Positions 48,288 to 61,386 are shown, counted from the stretch's first letter. The stretch: DNA of 64,000 bases from an uncultured Pseudomonadota bacterium (GCA_913061235.1 CAJXTB010000003.1:1-64000); one strand, 5' to 3'. Program-made: numbers and translations. The notes: generated from the sequence alone by a model not told the origin.

Positions 48288-48291
48288 ATGA
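48073..48291 (+). pseudogene. Short frame, possible folK (HPPK) N-terminal remnant
   Basis: A 72-codon frame from GTG 48073. It starts MRVVLGIGGDLQRARDELMD, which recalls the first strand and helix of hydroxymethyldihydropterin pyrophosphokinase (canonical ALGSNLGD...). Homology is lost after ~35 residues and the rest is Pro/Ser-rich. Its TGA overlaps the topoisomerase A-subunit start as ATGA. GGAG sits only 2 bases before the GTG, too close to be good. It may be a truncated gene, a leader peptide, or chance. Confidence 0.25.
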
Positions 48292-50630
48292 TGGCCATCG
48301 AGCCCGTGCCCCTGCACGAGGCCGCGCGCGAGCGCTACCTCAACTACGCCTTGTCCGTGATCACTGCCCGCGCACTGCCTGATGTGCGCGACGGCATGAA
48401 GCCGGTTCAGCGCCGAATCCTGTACACAATGTTCAAGGAACTCTCCTTGCATCCGGGAGGTCGCTACCGAAAGTGCGCGGCCATCGTCGGCGAGGTCATG
48501 GGTAAGTTCCACCCGCACGGGGACCAGTCTATCTACGACGCATTGGTCCGAATGGCGCAGGACTTCTCGTTGCTACACCCGCTTGTAGACGGCCAGGGAA
48601 ACTTCGGCTCTCTCGACGGCGACCCACCTGCTGCCATGCGGTACACAGAAGCCAAGCTGTTCCCTCTCGCTGAGGAACTGCTCACGGAAATCGGCAAGGA
48701 CACCGTCGACTTCCGTGGCACCTACGACGGTCAACGCATGGAGCCCGTGGTCCTGCCAGCGCAGTACCCGCAGCTCCTCGTCAACGGCTCCGAAGGCATC
48801 GCTGTCGGTATGGCGACCCGCATTCCGCCGCACAACCTGGGCGAAGTTGTCGACGCGTGTGTCGCGTTTATCGATGACACAAGCATCGATACTGCCGGAT
48901 TGATGAAGTACATCAAGGGCCCGGACTTCCCAACCGGCGGCAAGATTCTCACCGACCACGCCGACCTGCTCAAGATGTACGAGACCGGCCAAGGCACCAT
49001 GCGCGTGCGTGCTCTGTGGCACACCGAGAAAGATGGCCGTCGTCACCAGATCATTCTCACCTCGGTCCCGTACGGCCAGAACAAGGCCAAGCTCATTGAG
49101 CGTATTGGCCATGAGGTCGCCGAGAAGAAGCTCCCGCTCGTCATTGACGTTCGCGACGAGTCCACCGAAGAAGTGCGCGTTGTCTTGGACATCAAGAACG
49201 CCGAGGCCGCTGAGCCCGTCATGGCCTACCTCTTCAAGCACACACCGCTCGAAGGTACGTGGTCTGCAAACCTGACCGCACTGATTCCAGACGACGATGA
49301 AGACGTGCTCGTGGCCAAGCCAGCACGCCTGTCGCTACAGGAAATCATTCGCCACTGGTGCCTGTTCCGCTTCCGCACCACCCGTCGCCGCTTCGAGTAC
49401 GAGCTGCGCAAGCTCCGTGAGCGCATCCACATCCTCGAAGGCTTCGAGATTGTGTTCGACATGCTCGACGAAGCCATCCGCATCATTCGCAATAGCGAAG
49501 GCAAGCGTGACGCTGCCGGCAAGCTAATGAAGCGGTTCAAGCTGTCCGACCTACAGGTCGAGGCGATTCTTGAGCTCAAGCTGTACAAGTTGGCTAAGCT
49601 TGAGATTCTCGCCATTCGCGAAGAACTCGAAGAAAAGCGCACCGAAGCTGCACGCATCGAGTCCATTCTGGCCAGCGGAGACAAGCTGTGGAACGTGGTT
49701 CGCACCGAGCTTGTTGAGCTTCGCGGTGGCTATGCACAGAAGCGACGCACAGAGATTGGCGGTCGTATTCGTGAGCTGACCTACGACGAAGACGCCTACA
49801 TCATTGCCGAAGACACCTTCGTGGTCGTGACCCGTGGCGGCTGGATCAAGCGTCAGAGCAGCTTCAGTGAGCTGTCCAAGATTCGCGTTCGCGACGATGA
49901 CGAGATTGGCTGGCTGTTCAAGGCCGGCACACGCTCGACCATCACCTTCTTGTCGAGCGACGGCGTTGCCTACACCATGCGCGTAGACGATGTTCCGAGC
50001 ACCACTGGCTATGGCGATGCGGTTCAGACGCACTTCAAGTTCAATGATGGTGCCAGCGTTGTCGGCGTCATCTCGAACGACCAGCGCCAGATCATTGTGG
50101 ACCTTGAAGCGCCTAGAAGCGAAGACGACCCAGACCAACCGTGGGGCTTTGCCATGACCAAGCGGGGCCGCGTGCTGCGCTGGTCGCAGAGCAATCACAT
50201 GGACCCGTCGAACAAGGGGGGCCGCAAGTATGCGCGCCTCAACCCAGACGATGCGGTGCTCAACGCACTGCCGTGTGCTGGAACTGAGTGGATTAGTATT
50301 GCCACCCAAGGCGGAAACGCCCTGTGCTTCTTGGTCAGTGAGGTCGGCATCCTCAAGTCTGCTGGCAAGGGTGTGACCGGCATCAAGCTCAAGAAGGAAG
50401 AGCCTGGTGTGGTCGGTGTGGACTTGGTCGAGCAGCTCGGCGGCATTGAGGTCGTCACCAATGGCGGACGCGAGCTGACCGTGACACCACGCAAGTACGA
50501 AGGCTCACGCGGTGGACGCGGCGGTACAGTGCTGCGACGCGGCAGTATTGATGAGTGGAAGCGCGAGCCCTATGTGTCGCTACTACTGACCGAACCGCCT
50601 GCGTCAACCGATGACTCGGAGGTGAACTGA
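48288..50630 (+). CDS. parC: DNA topoisomerase IV/gyrase subunit A
   Basis: A 780-residue type IIA topoisomerase cutting subunit. Active-site Tyr119 in AAMRYTEAKL; breakage/religation domain starts LNYALSVITARALPDVRDGMKPVQRR, with FHPHGDQSIYDALVRMAQ. The helical coiled domain follows, then a C-terminal beta-pinwheel (~490-770). A GyrA-box-like GSRGGRGG occurs late in the pinwheel, not at the usual early position, so ParC is favoured over GyrA, but this is not decisive. The A gene precedes the B gene, joined by TGATG. The first ATG (48288) and ATG 48291 are both possible starts. Confidence 0.9.
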   Translation: MMAIEPVPLHEAARERYLNYALSVITARALPDVRDGMKPVQRRILYTMFKELSLHPGGRYRKCAAIVGEVMGKFHPHGDQSIYDALVRMAQDFSLLHPLVDGQGNFGSLDGDPPAAMRYTEAKLFPLAEELLTEIGKDTVDFRGTYDGQRMEPVVLPAQYPQLLVNGSEGIAVGMATRIPPHNLGEVVDACVAFIDDTSIDTAGLMKYIKGPDFPTGGKILTDHADLLKMYETGQGTMRVRALWHTEKDGRRHQIILTSVPYGQNKAKLIERIGHEVAEKKLPLVIDVRDESTEEVRVVLDIKNAEAAEPVMAYLFKHTPLEGTWSANLTALIPDDDEDVLVAKPARLSLQEIIRHWCLFRFRTTRRRFEYELRKLRERIHILEGFEIVFDMLDEAIRIIRNSEGKRDAAGKLMKRFKLSDLQVEAILELKLYKLAKLEILAIREELEEKRTEAARIESILASGDKLWNVVRTELVELRGGYAQKRRTEIGGRIRELTYDEDAYIIAEDTFVVVTRGGWIKRQSSFSELSKIRVRDDDEIGWLFKAGTRSTITFLSSDGVAYTMRVDDVPSTTGYGDAVQTHFKFNDGASVVGVISNDQRQIIVDLEAPRSEDDPDQPWGFAMTKRGRVLRWSQSNHMDPSNKGGRKYARLNPDDAVLNALPCAGTEWISIATQGGNALCFLVSEVGILKSAGKGVTGIKLKKEEPGVVGVDLVEQLGGIEVVTNGGRELTVTPRKYEGSRGGRGGTVLRRGSIDEWKREPYVSLLLTEPPASTDDSEVN

Positions 50631-52528
50631 TGGCGTACGGTGCAGCACAGATCGACGTCCTCGAAGGCCTCGAACCTGTTCGTAAACGCCCTGGTATGTA
50701 CATCGGTGGAACCGGCTTAGCCGGACTTCACCACCTGCTGTGGGAAATCGTCGACAACAGCATCGACGAGGTCATGAACGACCATGCCACCTTCATCAAG
50801 GTCACCCTGCACGAAGACGGCACCACCCTGTCCGTCGAAGACAACGGTCGCGGCATCCCCGTGGACATCCACAAAAAAACCGGTCGTTCCGCACTCGAGG
50901 TCATCTTCACCACGCTGCACGCCGGCGGTAAGTTCGACGGCAACAGCTACAAGACCGCTGGCGGTCTGCACGGTGTCGGTAGTTCGGTGGTCAACGCCTT
51001 GTCCATCGGCCTAGAAGCCCGCATTCGACGAGACGGTCACGAGTACGTTCAGCACTACAAGCGCGGACGCCCACGCAAAGACGTCGAAGTGGTGGGTCCG
51101 GCACGCGGAACCGGAACACGCATCACGTTCACGCCCGACCCCGAGATCTTCGCAGACACCACATACGACGCCGAGATCATCAAAGAGCGCCTAGAGGTCA
51201 AGACCTTCCTCAACAAGGGCCTCAAGATCACCTTCTACGACAAGGCGGGCGGTCACACGCACGAGATTGTTCACGAAGGCGGACTTGCGGACTACCTGGG
51301 CGTTCTGTGCAAGCGGGATGGCCTAAACAGTGTGCTCGAAGCACCGTTTACACACGACAAAGAAAACGGCATTCGCCTAGACATCGCACTGACCTGGACC
51401 GATTCCCCACGCGAGAAGATTCGTACGTTCGTCAACGGCATCCCCACCCGAGACGGTGGCACCCACGAACAGGGCTTCAAAGATGGCCTCGTCAAAGCCC
51501 TGCGCAGCTTTATGGACGCACACTCCTTGGCCCCGCGCAGCCTAACGCTGACGTCCGACGACCTCCGCGAAGGCCTGGTCACCATCGTCAGTCTGTTCAT
51601 CGCCGAGCCGCAGTTCCAAGGCCAGACCAAAGACCGCCTCAACAACCCTGAAATTCGCGGAGCCGTCGACGCCAGTCTGCGCCCGGCCCTCGAGCAGTGG
51701 CTGCACAACAACAAGTCGGTCGGTGAGACCATCATCCACCGCGCGGTTCAGGCCGCCCGCGCCCGCATCGCCTCACGCCAGGCCGTTGCAACAGTGCGGG
51801 CCAAGACCTCGTCGAGCGCACGCTTGTCGCTGCCCGGCAAGCTCGCTGACTGCAGTTCCCGCGACCCCAGTGCTCGCGAGCTGTTCATTGTGGAAGGCGA
51901 CTCTGCTGGTGGTTCCGCCAAGCAGGGTCGGGACCGCAAGACCCAAGCCATTCTGCCGCTGCGGGGAAAGGTGCTCAACTGTGAGCAGGCGACGCTCAAG
52001 AAGGTGCTCGGCAACGAAGAGCTCAAGAACATCATCACAGCGCTCGGCTGCGGTATTGGCAAGGACTTCCGAGAAGACCGCCTACGCTACAACCGCATCA
52101 TCCTGCTCATGGACGCCGACAGTGACGGCCACCATATTGCCACGCTGCTGCTGACCTTCTTCTACCGCTACCTGCCGGAGCTGATTCGTCTGGGCTACAT
52201 CTACATTGCCCAGCCGCCATTGTTCCGCATCAACGTCGGTAAGGACACACACTGGGCGCTGACAGATGCCCACCGCAACCGGATTCTGAAGAAGTTGCCG
52301 TCGCGTGCCAAGCCTGAGATCACTCGATTCAAGGGCCTCGGTGAGATGCCTCCAAAGACACTCTTTCAGACCACACTGGATCCAAAGAGGCGCCGGCTGC
52401 AGCAGGTGACGCTGGCCATGCCCATGGAAGCCGAGAATACGATCAGCGAGTTGATGGGCAAGGACCCGTCGTATCGCTACCGTTTCATCATCGACAACGC
52501 TGATGACGTGGATGAACTGGACGTGTAG
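50630..52528 (+). CDS. parE: DNA topoisomerase IV/gyrase subunit B
   Basis: A 632-residue ATPase subunit. GHKL motifs: EIVDNSIDEV, DNGRGIPVDIH, GGLHGVGSSVVNALS; Toprim motifs: EGDSAGGSAKQGRDR (~421), PLRGKVLN and DADSDGHH (metal DxD, canonical DxDVDG). The length matches E. coli ParE (630) and not GyrB (804). The ATG overlaps the end of the A-subunit gene (TGATG), giving equimolar coupling. Which of the two enzymes, ParCE or gyrase, cannot be fixed from this window alone. Confidence 0.92.
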   Translation: MAYGAAQIDVLEGLEPVRKRPGMYIGGTGLAGLHHLLWEIVDNSIDEVMNDHATFIKVTLHEDGTTLSVEDNGRGIPVDIHKKTGRSALEVIFTTLHAGGKFDGNSYKTAGGLHGVGSSVVNALSIGLEARIRRDGHEYVQHYKRGRPRKDVEVVGPARGTGTRITFTPDPEIFADTTYDAEIIKERLEVKTFLNKGLKITFYDKAGGHTHEIVHEGGLADYLGVLCKRDGLNSVLEAPFTHDKENGIRLDIALTWTDSPREKIRTFVNGIPTRDGGTHEQGFKDGLVKALRSFMDAHSLAPRSLTLTSDDLREGLVTIVSLFIAEPQFQGQTKDRLNNPEIRGAVDASLRPALEQWLHNNKSVGETIIHRAVQAARARIASRQAVATVRAKTSSSARLSLPGKLADCSSRDPSARELFIVEGDSAGGSAKQGRDRKTQAILPLRGKVLNCEQATLKKVLGNEELKNIITALGCGIGKDFREDRLRYNRIILLMDADSDGHHIATLLLTFFYRYLPELIRLGYIYIAQPPLFRINVGKDTHWALTDAHRNRILKKLPSRAKPEITRFKGLGEMPPKTLFQTTLDPKRRRLQQVTLAMPMEAENTISELMGKDPSYRYRFIIDNADDVDELDV

Positions 52529-52534
52529 TTCTTC

Positions 52535-52552
52535 CACACCGCGTGCGGTGTG
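52535..52552 (+). terminator. Short hairpin after parE
   Basis: cacaccg and cggtgtg form 7 bp around cgtg, 7 bp after the parE stop. No T-run follows, so it may be a weak terminator or 3' stabiliser before the TPR-Clp gene. Confidence 0.4.
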
Positions 52553-52616
52553 CCGATGGAACGCTTGATGACGTCACACGCCGCGTACTCAGGCTACAAC
52601 TAAGCATGGAGAGTGA

Positions 52617-55600
52617 ATGAGCGACCGGAACGACGCCCTCAAGCTTTACAACGAAGCCATGGACCTTGCGCAGGCCGGCGAAAACATCGCCGCGCGCAGA
52701 CTTTTGGTTGAGGCCTCTGCCCTGGACCCGACAGACACCCGGATTCTGTCGTCCTTGGCGAAGAACTGGCGCGCGGAGGGGTTGTGGACCCATGCCGCAG
52801 ATGTACAGCGCCAAGCCATTGCGCTGGACGAGACCGATGCAGCCGCATGGGTGGCTCTTGGCGAAGACTTGCGCCAAGCGAGCTGCCACCGTGAGGCGCT
52901 CGATGCCTACGAGCGTGCCTGCACGTTGAACTCGAAAGACGCCTTCGCTGCCGCTGGACGCGGCGAGGCTCTGCGCATGCAAGGCCGTGCTGCCGAGGCG
53001 TTGCGCTGGTTTGAGGCTGCTCTGGAAGTCAGCCCAGAACATGCCTTTGGCGTGCGCGGTCGCGCCGCCTGCTTGTCCGCTCTCGGACGCTGGGACGAAG
53101 CCTTAGAAGGCTGGGAGAAAGCACTCTCCCTCAACAGTGAGAGCACCTTCGCCCGCGGTGGGTTGACCGAAGCCCGTCGCCAGCTCGCCAAGGTCGTGCC
53201 GAGCCCAGGTACGCCACCTCCGCCCGAGCGTTCCGACCACGAAGTCGCCGCAGAGCGCCACCGTTCGTGGGGCCTTGCACTGCTGCGAGACAAGCGCGCG
53301 CACGAAGCCGCAGTCGCACTAGAGGTGGCCTCCCAGCTCGCTCCTGAGTGGGTGGAGACCTCGGTAGACTTGGGCCGTGCCTACCTGGAGTCAGGCGATT
53401 TTGAAGCCGCTGTGACCGCATGGCGTCGCGCGCTGGCACTCGACCCCGGTCGTGTCGAAGTGGCCCTCAACATTGGGGATGCATGGCGCAGTGCCGGTGC
53501 TTGGACAGACGCCGTCAAGGCGTACGACGACGCCCTACGCCGGGATCCCGGACACGTTGCCGCTCTGGCGGGCCGAGGCGAAGCCCTGCGTCGTCACAAC
53601 CGTCACGAACAGGCTCTCAACTGGTTCGAGCGCGCGCTGGCACGCAATCCAACCCATCCCATGGCGCTCATTGGCAAGGCTGCATGCCTCAACCACCTCG
53701 ACCGTCACGCCGAAGCGCTGCCCCTTTGGCGCCGCTGTGTGGACCTCTTCCCCGAGTCGGACCACGCGATTGGTGGACTGCACGCAGCGGAAGCTGCGAC
53801 CGGGAATGAAGGCGATGAGGGCTCCGAGCTGTCTCGTCCTCTGCTCGCAAAGGCTCGCGTACTGCTGCGCGAGGAGCACTTCACCGACGCTATCGATGTC
53901 TTGTTGCGCGCCACTGAGATTGACCCGGCTGACCCCGAGTCCTGGCGCGTGCTTGGCACTGCCTACGCTGCTTGTGGAAGCCACGGAATGGCCGTTCAAG
54001 CCCTAGACGCTGCACTGCGCATTCAGCCCGATGACCGCGCAACGCGTCACGCACGCGCCGCGGCACTCCAGCGCGGACAAGACCTACTCGAAGCGCTGGC
54101 TGCATGGGACGGACTGGTCGCAAGCCGAAACGACGATCTGTACGCCCTTCAAGGTCGGGCAGAGACCCTCGCCGCACTGGCCCGCTTCCGCGAAGCTGCG
54201 AAAGCCTTCGACGTCGTCCTGTCCCACAACGCCGAGCATGCACAAGCGCTGCTCGGAAAGGCCACGGCGCTCTCCGCAGACCACCGGTATGATGAAGCGC
54301 TCGGTGTTTGGCTTCGCGCTCTCGACGGTGCTCCAGACGACCCCGCCATTCAGCGCGGCCTCGCCCACTGTGAGCAAGCCCTCGCTCGGCAAGAAGAGCC
54401 AGCACTGCCCTCTGTGTCCGTCTCCAGCGGCCTACCGGTCCGCCGAAGCGCCGACCGAACCGCCGCACGCCGAATCCTTGCGCGCGGACGTGCCCTGCGC
54501 CGAGAACGGGACCTCCCCGGTGCGCTGCGCGCCTTCGAGCGTGCCCTCGAGACCGACCCGACCTATGCCGAAGCCGCACTGCGCGTTGGCTCAGTGCTTG
54601 AAGAACAGCGCCTCATCGAAGAAGCCATTGCTGGCTATGAACGCTGCGTCACCATTGATCCCGGCCACTACCAAGCCGCGACCAACATTGCCGAGCTGTT
54701 GCGTAAGAACGAGCGCTACAACGAAGCCGTCGAAGCCTACGACCGCGCGCTACTGCTCAATGACGACTACCTGTACGCTCTGGCAGGCCGCGGCGAAGCC
54801 ATGCGCATGCTCGGTGACTTTGAGGGCTGCCTACAGTGGTTCGATAGAGCACTCGCCATGGGGCAAAAACACCTCTTTGCCATTCAAGGCAAGGCCGCTG
54901 CGCTCAACTCGCTGGGCAAGTTCGACAAGGCGCTTCCACTATGGGACCAAGCCTTGGCTCTCGACCCCGAAGGTACGTTCGCCAAAGATGGCAAGCGCTA
55001 CTGCGAAGGCCGCCTGAAGAAGCAGAAGGTCACCGGAAAGAAGGAAGAGCCGGTCGAAGAGCCCGGTGAGTCCACCACCCCTACTCTAGATGAGCAGGGC
55101 CGAGACCTGACAGCCCTGGCACGCGACGGAAAGCTCGGCACCATCGTGGGTCGCGCCAAAGAGATGCGCAGCCTGATGAAGACGCTGATGCGTCGTCAAA
55201 AGGCCAATCCTCTGTTGCTTGGCGAGCCCGGCGTTGGCAAGACCGCAGTTGTCGAAGGCGTGGCCAAGCGCCTCGCCGGTGACAACCCTCCCGAGCGCCT
55301 CAGAGGCATTCGCATCATTGAGCTGTCGATGGGCTCGCTGGTCGCGGGCACCAAGTATCGGGGCACCTTTGAAGAGCGGCTCAAGGCCATCATCGCTGAA
55401 GCGCGCGACACTCCCGGAATCGTCCTGTTCATCGACGAAATCCACACTCTGGTCGGCGCTGGACGCACCGAGGGCGGCTCCCTAGACGCTGCCAACATCC
55501 TCAAGCCAGCTCTCGCCCGCGGTGAGATTACGGTCATTGGCGCCACTACCCGCGCCGAGTACCGTAAGCACTTCGAGAGTGACTCTGCGTTGGAGCGTCG

Positions 55601-56855
55601 CTTTCAGCCGCTCACCATCGAAGAGCCATCGAACGAAGACACCATTGAGTTGCTCACCCAAATCCAAGGCCAGTACGCCAAGCACCACTCTGTGGGCATT
55701 GACGCCGAAGCCCTGGAGTGCGCCGTCAAGATGGCCGTGCGGTTCATCCCAGACCGTCGCCTGCCAGACAAGGCGCTCGACGTTCTCGACGAAGCATGTG
55801 CGGAAGCCAGCCTGTCCGGAAGTGGCACAGTAACCGCAGAAATCGTGGCGCAAGTCATCGCTGAACGCACCGGTGTTCCGGTCACCAAGCTGACGAGCGA
55901 CGAACGCGAACACATGGCGAGTACCGAGAGCATTCTCTCCGCACGCGTTGTTGGCCAGCCCCATGCCATTCAGCACATTGCCAACGCCGTGCGCCTGTCG
56001 CGCGCTGGACTGCGCGCTCCCAACCGCCCGCGCGGCGTCTTCCTGTTCGTCGGTCCGTCCGGTGTGGGCAAGACCGAGCTGGCACGGGCACTGGCAGACT
56101 TTCTCTTCCCCGAAGGCAACGCTCTCGTGAAGCTCGACATGAGCGAGTACACCGAGAAGTTCAGCGGCAGCCGACTGCTCGGGGCCCCTCCTGGGTACGC
56201 AGGTCACGGCGAAGAAGGTCAGCTAACCAGCGCATTGCGCACACGTCCGTACTCGGTGGTTCTGCTGGACGAGTTTGAGAAGGCGCATCCGGATGTGCAG
56301 TCCATGTTCTTGGGCGTGTTCGACGAAGGCGTCCTGACCGACAGCGAAGGACGCCGGGTTGAAGCCAAAGAATGCCTGTTCATCCTGACGACCAACGCCG
56401 GCAGCACGCACAGCGCGCGTCGCGCCATGGGCTTCAGTGGTCCGGTCAGCGAGCGGGAAGCGGCGCTCGAAGCGGTACGTCCATACTTCCGTCCCGAGCT
56501 TCTCAACCGCATGGACGAGGTGATTCAGTTCAACTCGCTCACCGAGCCGGACCTTCGAGACGTCGTGCGCATTCACATGGAGCACCTCAAGACCCGAGCC
56601 CAGGACGAAGGCGTGACGCTGACCTGGACTCAGGCCGTCGTCGACTTGGTCGCTGCACACCGTCCGGTCGCTGCCTTCGGCGCACGCCCAGCCATTCGCG
56701 CTATCGACGACTTGGTCGCTGAGCCGCTTGCCGAGCTGCTCTTGTCGAACGAAGATGACGGCCCTACGACCTACCGGGCCCAAGTTCGCAACGGAGCGGT
56801 GGTGTTTACGCCAGGTACTCCAGCACCGAAGCCGCAGATCCCAGAGCCTGTCTAG
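52617..56855 (+). CDS. Four-module TPR array fused to a ClpA-like double AAA+ unfoldase
   Basis: A 1412-residue protein; GGAG precedes the ATG. Residues ~1-192, 213-395, 404-595 and 618-808 are four similar TPR modules, each with the internal pattern YALxGRGEALR...EALxWFxxAL...GKAAxLxxLGR, split by Pro- or acid-rich linkers. From ~823 follow NBD1 (Walker A GEPGVGKT at 869-876, Walker B LFIDEIH with Asp940, pore GTKYRGTFEER, Arg finger ALERRF) and NBD2 (Walker A GPSGVGKT from 1146, Walker B VVLLDEFEKAH, pore GAPPGYAGHGEEG, RPELLNRMDEV). The NBDs are joined without the ClpB/ClpC M-domain. In NBD2 TTNAGSTHSARRAMGFSG puts MGF where ClpA has its IGL ClpP loop. The Clp N-domain is replaced by TPRs. 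I infer substrate or partner capture by TPRs and possible hand-off to ClpP. Confidence 0.93.
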   Translation: MSDRNDALKLYNEAMDLAQAGENIAARRLLVEASALDPTDTRILSSLAKNWRAEGLWTHAADVQRQAIALDETDAAAWVALGEDLRQASCHREALDAYERACTLNSKDAFAAAGRGEALRMQGRAAEALRWFEAALEVSPEHAFGVRGRAACLSALGRWDEALEGWEKALSLNSESTFARGGLTEARRQLAKVVPSPGTPPPPERSDHEVAAERHRSWGLALLRDKRAHEAAVALEVASQLAPEWVETSVDLGRAYLESGDFEAAVTAWRRALALDPGRVEVALNIGDAWRSAGAWTDAVKAYDDALRRDPGHVAALAGRGEALRRHNRHEQALNWFERALARNPTHPMALIGKAACLNHLDRHAEALPLWRRCVDLFPESDHAIGGLHAAEAATGNEGDEGSELSRPLLAKARVLLREEHFTDAIDVLLRATEIDPADPESWRVLGTAYAACGSHGMAVQALDAALRIQPDDRATRHARAAALQRGQDLLEALAAWDGLVASRNDDLYALQGRAETLAALARFREAAKAFDVVLSHNAEHAQALLGKATALSADHRYDEALGVWLRALDGAPDDPAIQRGLAHCEQALARQEEPALPSVSVSSGLPVRRSADRTAARRILARGRALRRERDLPGALRAFERALETDPTYAEAALRVGSVLEEQRLIEEAIAGYERCVTIDPGHYQAATNIAELLRKNERYNEAVEAYDRALLLNDDYLYALAGRGEAMRMLGDFEGCLQWFDRALAMGQKHLFAIQGKAAALNSLGKFDKALPLWDQALALDPEGTFAKDGKRYCEGRLKKQKVTGKKEEPVEEPGESTTPTLDEQGRDLTALARDGKLGTIVGRAKEMRSLMKTLMRRQKANPLLLGEPGVGKTAVVEGVAKRLAGDNPPERLRGIRIIELSMGSLVAGTKYRGTFEERLKAIIAEARDTPGIVLFIDEIHTLVGAGRTEGGSLDAANILKPALARGEITVIGATTRAEYRKHFESDSALERRFQPLTIEEPSNEDTIELLTQIQGQYAKHHSVGIDAEALECAVKMAVRFIPDRRLPDKALDVLDEACAEASLSGSGTVTAEIVAQVIAERTGVPVTKLTSDEREHMASTESILSARVVGQPHAIQHIANAVRLSRAGLRAPNRPRGVFLFVGPSGVGKTELARALADFLFPEGNALVKLDMSEYTEKFSGSRLLGAPPGYAGHGEEGQLTSALRTRPYSVVLLDEFEKAHPDVQSMFLGVFDEGVLTDSEGRRVEAKECLFILTTNAGSTHSARRAMGFSGPVSEREAALEAVRPYFRPELLNRMDEVIQFNSLTEPDLRDVVRIHMEHLKTRAQDEGVTLTWTQAVVDLVAAHRPVAAFGARPAIRAIDDLVAEPLAELLLSNEDDGPTTYRAQVRNGAVVFTPGTPAPKPQIPEPV

Positions 56856-56916
56856 AACCAGGCCCTAGCGGACGCCAACACGGCGGAACACGGACCTCTC
56901 TCCGAGCCACAAGACC

Positions 56917-57156
56917 ATGAATGCTGATGCGAAAAACCAGCTGATGAAGCTGGAGACCGGACGTACCTCGTCGATACTCATGCTCGTCATGTCCGTGCTG
57001 CTCTGCATTGGCGGGGCGATTGCCTACTGGTACGTGGGCACGGCAGATCTGGTGCTGGCCATTCCAATCGTTGGGGCGCTGGTGGCCTCACTGATGGCGT
57101 ACGACAAGAACACACGCTTGTTGAGGGAGTTCCGCGCACGGTACCCTGACGAGTAG
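56917..57156 (+). CDS. Small two-helix membrane protein
   Basis: A 79-residue protein with two transmembrane segments (ILMLVMSVLLCIGGAIAYWY and LVLAIPIVGALVASLMAY) between a basic N-tail and a basic/acidic C-tail. No family recognised. Same strand as, and followed by, another two-helix protein at 57195. A ribosome site is weak. Confidence 0.6.
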   Translation: MNADAKNQLMKLETGRTSSILMLVMSVLLCIGGAIAYWYVGTADLVLAIPIVGALVASLMAYDKNTRLLREFRARYPDE

Positions 57157-57194
57157 GCGGTTCGCAGAGTGCCACCGGTCAGCAGGGAGTGATG

Positions 57195-57458
57195 ATGGAC
57201 GAAGACAGATTAGCCCCGGAAGCACGGGCAGAGTGGGCCAAGATCATGAACCTTCGCCGAGTGGCGCTCATCTTCTTGGGTGTCTATGTGTTTGGGACCC
57301 TGGCTGGAACCTTCGCAATCTTGGCCATTGGCCAGTCGACGTTGAGCGACGTGGCCTGGGAGCTGGGTCCCATCCTCTTGCCGGCTGGTATCTGCATCGG
57401 GCTCCCGTACTTCATGTACTGGCAACAGCGAACCAAATTCCTCAAAAAGCACGACTAA
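57195..57458 (+). CDS. Small two-helix membrane protein
   Basis: An 87-residue protein. GGGAG lies 5 bases before ATG 57195, so this start is preferred over GTG 57189 and ATG 57192 in the same run. Two transmembrane segments (VALIFLGVYVFGTLAGTFAILAI; LGPILLPAGICIGLPYFMYW) follow an amphipathic N-terminus and precede QQRTKFLKKHD. No family recognised. A strong hairpin terminator follows. Confidence 0.65.
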   Translation: MDEDRLAPEARAEWAKIMNLRRVALIFLGVYVFGTLAGTFAILAIGQSTLSDVAWELGPILLPAGICIGLPYFMYWQQRTKFLKKHD

Positions 57459-57465
57459 CGCAGAT

Positions 57466-57511
57466 ACCGCGCCAACCTCCCCCGGTTCGCATCGAGGGAA
57501 GTTGGCGCGGT
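57466..57511. terminator. Strong hairpin terminator between convergent genes
   Basis: Arms 57466-57481 (accgcgccaacctccc) and 57496-57511 (gggaagttggcgcggt) pair over 16 positions with one mismatch, loop 14 nt, followed on the plus strand by gtttgctt. It serves the plus-strand small-protein gene. The minus-strand receiver gene ends at 57542 and may share it. Confidence 0.8.
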
Positions 57512-57541
57512 GTTTGCTTACCTAGAGCCGGAGGCTCGTCG

Positions 57542-57919
57542 CTATGCGGCGATGCGCACGCGCTGATGAATCAGGCTGTTCACTGTGTTCGAGAGCACGT
57601 GAGAGCCCAGGGTGTACTTGCTGATGTGAGCCGTGGCGCCCATCTGCAAGGAGCGGTGTGCTGCCATCTGTGTGCCGTCATGGGTCATGACGATGATGGG
57701 GACGGGGCCCACAGTGTCGGCAATGATGCCCAAGACATCCACGCCCACAAGTTGTGCCGTGTTTGTGTCGATGACAATGACCGAAGGAGCCTTCTCAACC
57801 ATGGAAGCCAAGGCGTCCCACAGTGTGGAGTATTGGGCAACTTCGCCGCTTCCTGACAGCTCATCGGCCATCATCTGTGCGTCTAGGTCATCACTATCGA
57901 TGGTCACAATCAAACTCAT
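57542..57919 (-). CDS. Stand-alone receiver-domain protein
   Basis: A 125-residue CheY-like receiver. ATG 57919 has GGAGG upstream. Key residues: acidic pocket TIDSDD, phosphoacceptor Asp in VIVIDTN (about residue 54), Thr in VMTHDG, Lys in ISKYTLG. It has no output domain. It lies directly downstream of the sigma-54 activator on the same strand (44-bp gap), so it is probably co-expressed with it and may supply the phosphorylatable receiver that the activator lacks. Confidence 0.85.
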   Translation of the reverse strand: MSLIVTIDSDDLDAQMMADELSGSGEVAQYSTLWDALASMVEKAPSVIVIDTNTAQLVGVDVLGIIADTVGPVPIIVMTHDGTQMAAHRSLQMGATAHISKYTLGSHVLSNTVNSLIHQRVRIAA

Positions 57920-57963
57920 GGGTACCTCCGTACCCACACCATCGGACCGCAGAGCCGCCGACC

Positions 57964-59358
57964 TTAGCTCGAAAGGCCATATTGTTTGATTTTTGTGTAC
58001 AGTGTGCGCCGTGTGATGCCGGCCTGATCCGCTGCATCTACCAGCCGACCTTGGTTTCTCTCCAGCAGCCGGAACAAGTAGGTTCGCTCCACTTCAGCAA
58101 CCGCGCGGTCTGTGTTCGCCTTGAGGGACGTTGCATTGTCAATGACAAAGCCGCCACGAGCCGCAGGTGTTGGCCGGGCACGGACCATGTCAGCAGCCAA
58201 GTGCTCCCGCTCCAACCGCTGACCAGCACGGGTAATCACCCAGCGCTCGCACAACGCACGAAGCTGGCGCACATTGCCGGGCCAGTGGTAGCCCAAGATG
58301 ACGTCCATGGCGTCCGCGCTCACTACCGGGGGAGCGAGGCCGTACTCACCGCCAATCTCGTCGAGAAAATGCCGCATGAGCAGCGGAACATCTTCCCGAC
58401 GGCTGCGCAGCGGTGGCAGCGTGATGGGAAACACGGCCAGGCGATAGTACAGGTCTTCCCGAAATCGCTTGTCGGCCACTGCGGACTCCAGCTCCACATT
58501 CGTTGCCGCGACAATGCGCACATCCACACGCACAGGGTCCCGTCCACCCACTCGCCTAAAGGTCATCTCTTCGAGAACCCGCAGCAGGTTCACCTGGACG
58601 TTGAGGGTGGTCTCACCCAGTTCATCGAGAAAGAGCGTACCGCCATCAGCCATCTCGAAGAGTCCCTCGCGCCGACCGATTGCGCCGGTGAATGAGCCCT
58701 TCTCATGGCCAAACAGCTCGCTCTCCAACAAGCTCTCAGTGAAGGCGCCGCAGTTGACCGAGATGAACGGCTTGTCCTTTCGGCGACTACGGTCGTGGAT
58801 AGCTCGGCTGATGAGCTCCTTTCCGGTCCCGGTCTCCCCACGAATGAGGACCGTCGCATCCGTTGTTGCGACTTTGCGGACCTGATCGAACACATTCAAC
58901 ATGCGCGGGCTCTGCGTCAGCAGATGGCGAAACCCATAGAGGTCTTTGACCTCCTCACGCACGCGAGCCAGCTCCGAGCTGTGCCGTGCCTCGGCCAGCG
59001 CATCGGACAGAATGTGCTGAAGACGAGGCAACCCACTCGGCATCGCCAGAAAATGAGACGCTCCGCGGCGAATCGCGGCCACGATTTCTCCGGTGCTCGC
59101 TGACTCCCCAACCGCAATGACAGGAACGCCCGGAGCATGCTCCGAGAGTCGCTCAATCGCCGCCACACCAGGCTCGTCATCTAGGAACAACGACACCAGC
59201 ATGATGTCCGGCTCCAGCGTCGTCAGCGCCTGCATTCCCTCACGCGCACGGGTCACACGAAAGATGCGATGTCCTAGGTCACGCACCGCCTGCTCGAGCT
59301 GTTGTCCGGCTCGCTCCCGGCTCTCGGCAATGAAGACCGTGGCTGTAGATTCGGGCAT
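57964..59358 (-). CDS. Sigma-54-dependent transcriptional activator with degenerate receiver
   Basis: A 464-residue NtrC-type regulator. ATG 59358 has GGAGG 6 bases upstream. Residues ~1-130 form a receiver in which the phosphoacceptor Asp is Ser56 (DIMLVSLFLDD), one acidic-pocket residue is Ala11 and the Lys is Met (FLAMPSG), so it cannot be a normal phospho-switch. The AAA+ domain is intact: Walker A GETGTGKE, EKGSFTGAIG (GAFTGA loop with Ser), Walker B GTLFLDE, Arg fingers in FREDLYYRL. A Fis-type HTH ends the protein (LVDAADQAGITRRTLYTKIKQYG). It should drive sigma-54 promoters in response to something other than its own phosphorylation. Confidence 0.93.
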   Translation of the reverse strand: MPESTATVFIAESRERAGQQLEQAVRDLGHRIFRVTRAREGMQALTTLEPDIMLVSLFLDDEPGVAAIERLSEHAPGVPVIAVGESASTGEIVAAIRRGASHFLAMPSGLPRLQHILSDALAEARHSSELARVREEVKDLYGFRHLLTQSPRMLNVFDQVRKVATTDATVLIRGETGTGKELISRAIHDRSRRKDKPFISVNCGAFTESLLESELFGHEKGSFTGAIGRREGLFEMADGGTLFLDELGETTLNVQVNLLRVLEEMTFRRVGGRDPVRVDVRIVAATNVELESAVADKRFREDLYYRLAVFPITLPPLRSRREDVPLLMRHFLDEIGGEYGLAPPVVSADAMDVILGYHWPGNVRQLRALCERWVITRAGQRLEREHLAADMVRARPTPAARGGFVIDNATSLKANTDRAVAEVERTYLFRLLERNQGRLVDAADQAGITRRTLYTKIKQYGLSS

Positions 59359-59394
59359 GCGTTCCTCCGTGGGAAACGCATTACTCATCCTGGC

Positions 59395-60080: not shown

Positions 60081-60584
60081 ATGTCTGACCCGTCTGACGC
60101 ACCGTTCACCCCTGGTGCTGGAATCCTCAGCGAGAGTGTGGACCGACTCATGAATCGCGCTCCCAAGCCGCTAAGCGCCCATGCCGCACTGGACGCCGCG
60201 CGAAAGGCAGAACAGCAACGTCACGCCCAAGCCGAACAAGACGTCACTCTGCCGCCCGCAGAGCCCGATGATGTCGACATGGTCGTGGACGTTCTGCGCA
60301 GCCTCGTCGCAGACGCCGTCGTCCTAAAGCGCATGCAGGTCGACCGCAGAGACGTCTTCACTGCTGTGTGGCAGGCACACCAGGCACGCGCCCGCATTGA
60401 GCGAGACCTACCCATTGCCATTGCAGCAGCAGCGCTCATCGCCGCCGCCAAGCGTGTCCCCAAAGGCCACCTTGTCGCCGTAGAGGTCGCTCTAGGGACA
60501 GAACGTCGCGCCACATGGGTCGACACGTCGACCGGTACTGTGCTCGCGACCGCGTCTCCCCCGGCTATTTACCTGATTGGATGA
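60081..60584 (+). CDS. Hypothetical protein, alpha-helical
   Basis: A 167-residue protein with GGAGG 5 bases before ATG. An acidic helical N-terminal part (SESVDRLMNRAPK; EPDDVDMVVDVLRSL) is followed by a compact helical domain (VFTAVWQAHQARARIERDL) and a beta end (TWVDTSTGTVLATASPPAIYLIG). No family recognised. Its last 20 bases overlap the convergent hslO gene. Confidence 0.65.
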   Translation: MSDPSDAPFTPGAGILSESVDRLMNRAPKPLSAHAALDAARKAEQQRHAQAEQDVTLPPAEPDDVDMVVDVLRSLVADAVVLKRMQVDRRDVFTAVWQAHQARARIERDLPIAIAAAALIAAAKRVPKGHLVAVEVALGTERRATWVDTSTGTVLATASPPAIYLIG

Positions 60585-61386
60585 GGTCTGCGAGCTGCTC
60601 TTGGCTGTAGACCTGGGCCTCACCACAGAAGTGGCAGGTCACCTCAGCTCCCTCGTCCTCGTCGTGCATCAGCTGTAGAGCGTCGACACCCACGCTCAAC
60701 AGCATGTCGTCGACCTTCTGCCGACTGCAGCGACACATCCACATCAGTGGAAGCTGGTCGAGCACACGAATGGACTCGCCCCGCAGGGTGCCGTTGACCG
60801 CGTCATTCAAGTCGTCGACGGTCAGGTCGTTGTAGGCTGCGGCGAACTCGCTCGGGGTCAGGCTGGGACGCTCGGGGTCCGAGGCCAAGCGCTCGACCAG
60901 CAATCCCACCGCACGCTCAATGCCGCCTTCCCCAATAACAACGTCAATGAGTACGTTGCCTTGGACCTGCTGACTGTCATGCATGTGAGACGCTAGAGCG
61001 GACTGGAGGGTCTGACCGGAGACTTCCGTCACACCCCGGTACAGCTCGGCCTTCGCGTCGGACTTAATCGCCAACAACATGCCAGTGTGCTGGGTTGTCA
61101 CGGGCAAGTTCTTGGGCATGGCGCGCCCGCGAATCGTGCCTAAAGAGTCGACTTCTGCGAACACACTCGCTTCAGGATTGGCCGTCTGAAGCTGAAGCGT
61201 GATGCGCTCTTCGCCCTTGATGTGTCCGCCCATCAACAGGGCAGCTACCGACAACTCGGCGGCAATTCGCGATGCCCCAAGCCCCAGTTCGTGAATCTCG
61301 GCCGTCTGCAAACTGACTTCGGTCGCGTCGATAACAACGATGCGTACGGCATCTCCGCCGACCAATCCGCGTGTGCTGGTGTCCAT
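60565..61386 (-). CDS. hslO: Hsp33 redox-activated chaperone
   Basis: A 273-residue cytoplasmic holdase, active when oxidised. C-terminal zinc Cys: WMCRCSRQ (CxC) and VTCHFCGE (CxxC), the four-Cys switch. N-terminal part has the Hsp33 core (RIAAELSVAALLMGGHIKGEERI; AMPKNLPVTTQH). It is slightly short of E. coli Hsp33 (292). Neighbour of a DsbD-alpha-like periplasmic protein 21 bp upstream, a pairing with a thiol-redox theme. Confidence 0.94.
   Translation of the reverse strand: MDTSTRGLVGGDAVRIVVIDATEVSLQTAEIHELGLGASRIAAELSVAALLMGGHIKGEERITLQLQTANPEASVFAEVDSLGTIRGRAMPKNLPVTTQHTGMLLAIKSDAKAELYRGVTEVSGQTLQSALASHMHDSQQVQGNVLIDVVIGEGGIERAVGLLVERLASDPERPSLTPSEFAAAYNDLTVDDLNDAVNGTLRGESIRVLDQLPLMWMCRCSRQKVDDMLLSVGVDALQLMHDEDEGAEVTCHFCGEAQVYSQEQLADLIQSGK

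Follow-up and report, generated by a model that had tools for sequence, protein, structure and literature searches.

The window analysed here, a 64,000-nucleotide stretch from an uncultured Pseudomonadota bacterium (GCA_913061235.1 CAJXTB010000003.1:1-64000), contains a gene whose product (P0001) joins a long array of tetratricopeptide repeats (TPRs) to a Clp-type AAA+ core with two nucleotide-binding domains (NBD1 and NBD2). An earlier note, made from the DNA alone, had described it as a ClpA-like unfoldase with four duplicated TPR modules in place of the N-domain. The gene and its parts are the following:

52617..56855, plus strand: TPR-Clp fusion gene (P0001), ATG start, 1412 amino acids, stop codon included
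52635..53144, plus strand: TPR module 1, five TPRs, residues 7-176, with a capping helix after it
53250..53759, plus strand: TPR module 2, five TPRs, residues 212-381
53832..54341, plus strand: TPR module 3, five TPRs, residues 406-575
54465..54974, plus strand: TPR module 4, five TPRs, residues 617-786, predicted with a pLDDT (predicted local distance difference test) of ~90
55017..55082, plus strand: linker from the TPR array to the AAA+ core, residues 801-822, no Pfam domain
55083..55841, plus strand: NBD1 (AAA and AAA_lid_9), residues 823-1075
55929..56534, plus strand: NBD2 (AAA_2), residues 1105-1306
56427..56435, plus strand: MGF tripeptide at the position of the ClpP-docking loop, residues 1271-1273
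56535..56771, plus strand: C-terminal D2-small domain, residues 1307-1385, with the sensor-2 motif GAR

The open reading frame runs exactly from 52617 to 56855 (+) as one intact frame with no internal stops, so that the TPR array and the Clp core do belong to a single protein, as had been claimed. Pfam assigns TPR families to residues ~1-790, followed by AAA, AAA_lid_9, AAA_2 and ClpB_D2-small. Clp_N was not found at E<=1 either in the 60 N-terminal residues or at the junction of the TPRs and the core (residues 780-870), while the same scan detected it at 9.7e-14 in the ClpA of this genome, which served as a positive control; the TPRs thus stand where a Clp N-domain would be expected. Residues 806-820 of the linker are predicted to be disordered (pLDDT <50).

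NBD1 includes Walker A (GEPGVGKT), Walker B (DE940-941), the pore motif KYRG (Y914) and Arg fingers R994/R995. In NBD2 the corresponding elements are GPSGVGKT, DE1218-1219, GYAG (Y1194) and R1298. The Walker A and B motifs, pore motifs and Arg fingers of both rings, all noticed earlier, are conserved in the orthologues, which come from 11 genera. Since the core is about 590 residues long, matching ClpA (610) rather than ClpC/ClpB (674-717), there is no room in it for an M-domain, and this part of the earlier description is borne out as well. With its two AAA+ modules, Walker A/B motifs, Arg fingers, pore loops and D2-small domain, P0001 falls into the broad class of Hsp100/Clp two-NBD AAA+ unfoldases; PADLOC returned only generic AAA+ and TPR matches.

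P0001 does not fit ClpA, ClpB, ClpC or TssH/ClpV within this class. It scores 632.6 bits with the ClpA model TIGR02639 (cut-off 993.15), 687.6 bits with the ClpB model TIGR03346 (cut-off 1232) and 629 bits with TssH/ClpV (cut-off 885), and it is below the NCBIfam cut-offs for ClpG and ClpK as well. In a PDB sequence ranking ClpC of S. aureus came first (560 bits), ClpB second and ClpA third. Two trees placed the fusion cores outside the ClpA, ClpB and ClpC clades, on a stem of 1.06-1.4 changes per site, which is about as long as the ClpA stem; the fusion cores and ClpA are separate clades, each fully supported and both on long stems. The genome encodes a separate ClpA (with Clp_N) and a ClpB besides the fusion. 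Judged by its sequence, P0001 is a separate Clp lineage which is ClpA-like in architecture only: the earlier label holds for the absence of the M-domain and fails for membership, given the position outside the ClpA clade and below the ClpA cut-off.

P0001 shares with ClpA the two-NBD ring core, the absence of an M-domain and a hydrophobic-Gly-Phe/Leu loop for ClpP, and its model can be superposed on the ClpAP chain 6w20_A (VIA Z 39.3, root-mean-square deviation 5.1, 543 aligned residues). Unlike ClpA, it has no Clp N-domain and hence no ClpS site, with 20 TPRs in place of them. ClpC, an adaptor-driven machine, has an xGF-type loop too, but it possesses an N-domain, a short M-domain and adaptors acting in trans, whereas the fusion lacks both domains. 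ClpB/Hsp104 and ClpK/ClpG have the same AAA+ core; the fusion differs from them in having neither an M-domain nor a Clp N-domain and in carrying a ClpP-loop tripeptide which they lack. TssH/ClpV differs in context: the neighbours of the fusion are parC-parE and regulators, not type VI secretion genes. Another very divergent two-NBD Clp-like protein (931 amino acids, LGF at the loop position) was seen at L076 (G033:C162:9000-13500); it sits on an extremely long branch, which suggests that it is either a misaligned relative or one more Clp lineage, within the same order, that stands apart.

The MGF tripeptide takes the alignment columns of IGL in E. coli ClpA and of xGF in ClpC and other ClpA proteins, in agreement with the position proposed for it before. 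All 15 orthologues covering the loop have [MVL]GF, with G-F invariant and the flanks variable. In the reference set, hydrophobic-G-F/L is present in ClpA and ClpC (a few read AGF, FGF or PGF), and the tripeptide is missing from ClpB, ClpK, a ClpG-like protein, ClpL and TssH. The IGL/F motif is known to separate ClpP-binding ClpA from ClpB/Hsp104 (PMC5540906) and sits in flexible peptidase-binding loops which dock in the clefts of ClpP (PMC7707817). A buried MGF had been named earlier as an argument against ClpP contact; the loop (residues 1265-1274, pLDDT <50) is instead predicted to be flexible, unordered rather than packed. The structure model of module 4 with the core has a mean pLDDT of 83 and matches ClpA, ClpC and Hsp104/ClpB structures over ~540-570 residues. 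ClpP is encoded in the genome of the fusion itself and in 12 of the 13 family genomes tested, two of these 12 by weak matches only.

A disaggregase or remodeller working independently of ClpP, in the style of ClpG/ClpK or Skd3, would explain the same architecture differently: the TPR arm would bring in partner chaperones or aggregates, with the GF loop retained for some other reason. The absence of an M-domain and a weak affinity of the core to ClpK/ClpG in the trees can be quoted in favour of this, and Skd3 demonstrates that a repeat domain combined with a Clp-type NBD can make a stand-alone disaggregase (PMC7343390). ClpB-type docking of DnaK is not expected for the fusion, since it has no M-domain. 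However, a hydrophobic-G-F retained in 15/15 orthologues within a variable loop, and seen in none of the disaggregases compared, speaks against such a role, and the genome already has ClpB; we consider this explanation unlikely.

Each subunit carries 20 TPRs, arranged as four modules of five 34-residue repeats. The in-register ungapped score exceeded those of all four shifted registers in 6/6 module pairs (for modules 2 and 4, 278 versus <=151), so it is the five-TPR block itself that was duplicated, beyond mere TPR likeness, and the four duplicated modules of the earlier description are real. The number of modules varies among the orthologues, with only two in genome G001. Folded from its single sequence, the TPR arm gave a low-confidence model (pLDDT 60, predicted template modelling score (pTM) 0.30), which was used for helix pairing only.

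The modules are very unequal in conservation. The mean fraction of the commonest residue is 0.74 in module 4, comparable with NBD1 (0.81) and NBD2 (0.76), and 0.51-0.54 in modules 1-3. With positions 2, 5, 6, 9, 12 and 13 of each TPR taken as the concave groove, module 4 reaches a groove conservation of 0.83-1.00 across TPRs 2-5 (0.96, 1.00 and 0.95 in TPRs 3-5), versus 0.61-0.74 for the other non-structural positions of TPRs 2-5 (0.67-0.74 beside TPRs 3-5). None of 10,000 permutations gave as large a groove excess over the whole module. Module 2 shows the reverse, its groove being less conserved than its remaining positions and the least conserved of the four. The simplest reading of these sequence patterns is that module 4 holds one fixed ligand and that binding is relaxed or diversifying further out, and the invariant groove of module 4 lends indirect support to a putative role of the TPRs in selecting partners or substrates. 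A carboxylate clamp of the Hsp70/Hsp90 type was considered for module 4 and dropped after a check by eye, in which only Asn at position 6 of TPR4.3 fitted.

A groove that does not vary would serve a constant anchor no less than a degron, and the variable number of modules (two in G001) would also be tolerable for a scaffold or localisation tether, which might hold the machine at a pole, a membrane protein or a large complex while the core takes its substrates by the pore alone. Against this stands the location of the TPRs, which occupy the site of substrate delivery by Clp N-domains and adaptors, and no feature found here singles out an anchor. We regard a pure tethering function as unlikely.

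The one-frame fusion is present in 17 of the 21 sampled genomes of its bacterial family (11 genera), a count which takes in contig-edge fragments; this family is the lineage found when the same architecture was looked for, as the earlier note had suggested doing. The four family genomes without it are only 77-89% complete and may therefore represent gaps or losses. A further 50 genomes of the same order and class yielded no fusion, nor did the other families among 189 genomes across the phylum that were searched with a profile of module 4 and the junction; about 180 sampled genomes of the phylum outside the family are without it. The sampling was confined to this one phylum, and convergent TPR-Clp fusions may exist elsewhere. 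Scanning of genome contigs with P0001 returned generic Clp or TPR relatives only, and among plasmids and phages there was no record with one place covering 80% of P0001.

The fusion cores form a single clade (support 100/100), and their identities correlate with those of ParE across genomes (Spearman 0.66, near-copies left out), which is consistent with vertical descent. The simplest history suggested by these sequences has the fusion arise once, in the ancestor of the family or earlier. A frameshift, an assembly error or a chance fusion of a TPR gene with a Clp gene, the first two of which had been raised at the outset as possible refutations, has a practically negligible chance of being the explanation: the same one-frame fusion, in a clade with full support, recurs in assemblies made independently for 11 genera, and these orthologues refute such an error.

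Viral contigs searched with P0001 alone yielded no fusion. A search with the core alignment kept 80 phage-type Clp loci, none with TPRs upstream. Many of these phage-type contigs (L088-L167) encode ClpC-like two-NBD ATPases, and nearly all phage-type Clp ATPases with a readable loop have a [VILM]GF-type ClpP-loop motif, so phage Clp unfoldases may use the ClpP of the host.

Upstream of the fusion, the window contains two genes for topoisomerase subunits:

48288..50630, plus strand: parC-like DNA topoisomerase subunit A (PF00521), conserved upstream neighbour
50630..52528, plus strand: parE-like DNA topoisomerase subunit B (PF00204, Toprim), conserved immediate upstream neighbour, 88 bp gap

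A same-strand parE lies upstream of the fusion in ten genomes of nine genera. In seven of them, from six genera, 28-174 bp separate the two genes and the fusion comes directly after parC-parE; in G002, G011 and G016 one or more genes lie between. Within the stretches covered, parE was not seen beside the fusion in G004, G009, G010 and G019. The parC-parE-fusion order may reflect operon-like co-expression or an inherited gene order; a promoter scan limited to sigma-70 types found no promoter-like site in 52300-57600. If the gene order were a functional link, the fusion could serve the ParC-ParE topoisomerase, or a nucleoid or segregation factor, as its dedicated protease or remodeller; the same-strand parE upstream, often at a short distance, can be quoted in favour of this. 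However, gene order can last without function, vertical inheritance alone predicts the correlation of core and ParE distances, and the adjoining parE is absent from view in the four genomes named above. We find this dedicated role quite doubtful.

Two response-regulator genes lie just downstream, convergent to the fusion: a lone receiver domain at 57545-57937 (-) adjoins an NtrC-type sigma-54 response regulator at 57967-59388 (-). A gene for the redox chaperone Hsp33 (PF01430) is located at 60568-61386 on the opposite strand, ~4 kb from the fusion; no counterpart was found near the fusion in the loci of relatives compared.

Combination of TPRs with an AAA+ module in one protein is familiar from mycobacterial EccA of type VII secretion, where a TPR domain is N-terminal to the AAA+ domain. 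EccA has a single AAA+ domain of the CbxX/CfqX type and a role in secretion, and is not a Clp protein. P0001 scores 41 bits against the EccA family, for which the cut-off is 467. Closer to Clp, in human CLPB/Skd3 an ankyrin-repeat domain replaces the N-domain, NBD1 and M-domain of Hsp100 (PMC7343390), so a helical repeat domain stands in for N-terminal parts there too, but the repeats are ankyrin and not TPR, there is one NBD instead of two, and the protein is a mitochondrial disaggregase. Also on record is the fusion of a death-like domain with a Clp-like AAA+ ATPase (PMC8195603). LapB (YciM) is a TPR-repeat protein which brings LpxC to the AAA+ protease FtsH (PMC9356133); it is separate, membrane-anchored and acts on FtsH in trans, whereas the fusion has its TPRs in cis, as part of a Clp ring. 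A described TPR-Clp fusion family was not found in the open-access literature searched. The earlier claim of a missing precedent goes too far where it is read as covering any repeat domain that stands in for the N-domain.

We consider P0001 to be, probably, an unfoldase that feeds ClpP and has a built-in TPR adaptor; this is the best reading of the data. Known bacterial Clp unfoldases pick their substrates largely by means of a small N-domain and separate adaptors such as ClpS and MecA. In the proposed mechanism, P0001 would form an ATP-driven double ring, presumably hexameric, as a distinct Hsp100/Clp unfoldase with its own Clp-core clade; its [MVL]GF loops would dock the ring on housekeeping ClpP, and the KYRG and GY[x]G pore loops would thread proteins. 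The arm of 20 TPRs per subunit, on a flexible linker, would act as an adaptor replacing the Clp N-domain. Module 4, the nearest to the ring, would bind one fixed ligand, which could be a degron, an adaptor or some component of the machine itself, in its invariant concave groove, while the diverged modules 1-3 may broaden or tune the capture of substrates picked by the TPRs.

Several points weigh against this ClpP-feeding reading. Pore loop 2 is GY[ASTQN]G, without the usual V, and Phe replaces Tyr at the second pore position in one orthologue (G001). The nearest named proteins in the trees are ClpK/ClpG-type disaggregases without the ClpP loop, with weak support (86/42) and over a long stem. 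The fusion-bearing genome G009 (94% complete, L045) gave no ClpP match; either the gene fell into a gap of the assembly, or this member lacks ClpP altogether. The groove positions are taken from canonical TPR numbering rather than from an experimental structure, and the model places the TPR arm relative to the ring without confidence (pTM 0.51).

More tentatively, and with somewhat more doubt than belief, we propose the fullest version of this idea: that the fusion represents an undescribed class of ClpP-feeding unfoldases, ancestral to the family, with four TPR cassettes built into the ring, of which the one near the ring holds a fixed ligand and the others diverge outward, and that it may be linked to topoisomerase IV or to chromosome segregation.

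Since one groove is invariant across genera, the ligand of module 4 should be findable by pull-down. If the ClpP-feeding reading is true, a ring with its own 20-TPR receptor per subunit would be a natural adaptor-free targeted protease, and such a whole-domain swap bears on engineered targeted degradation in bacteria. It would also mean that in the evolution of this family the Clp N-domain was swapped whole for a peptide-binding solenoid while the link to ClpP was kept.

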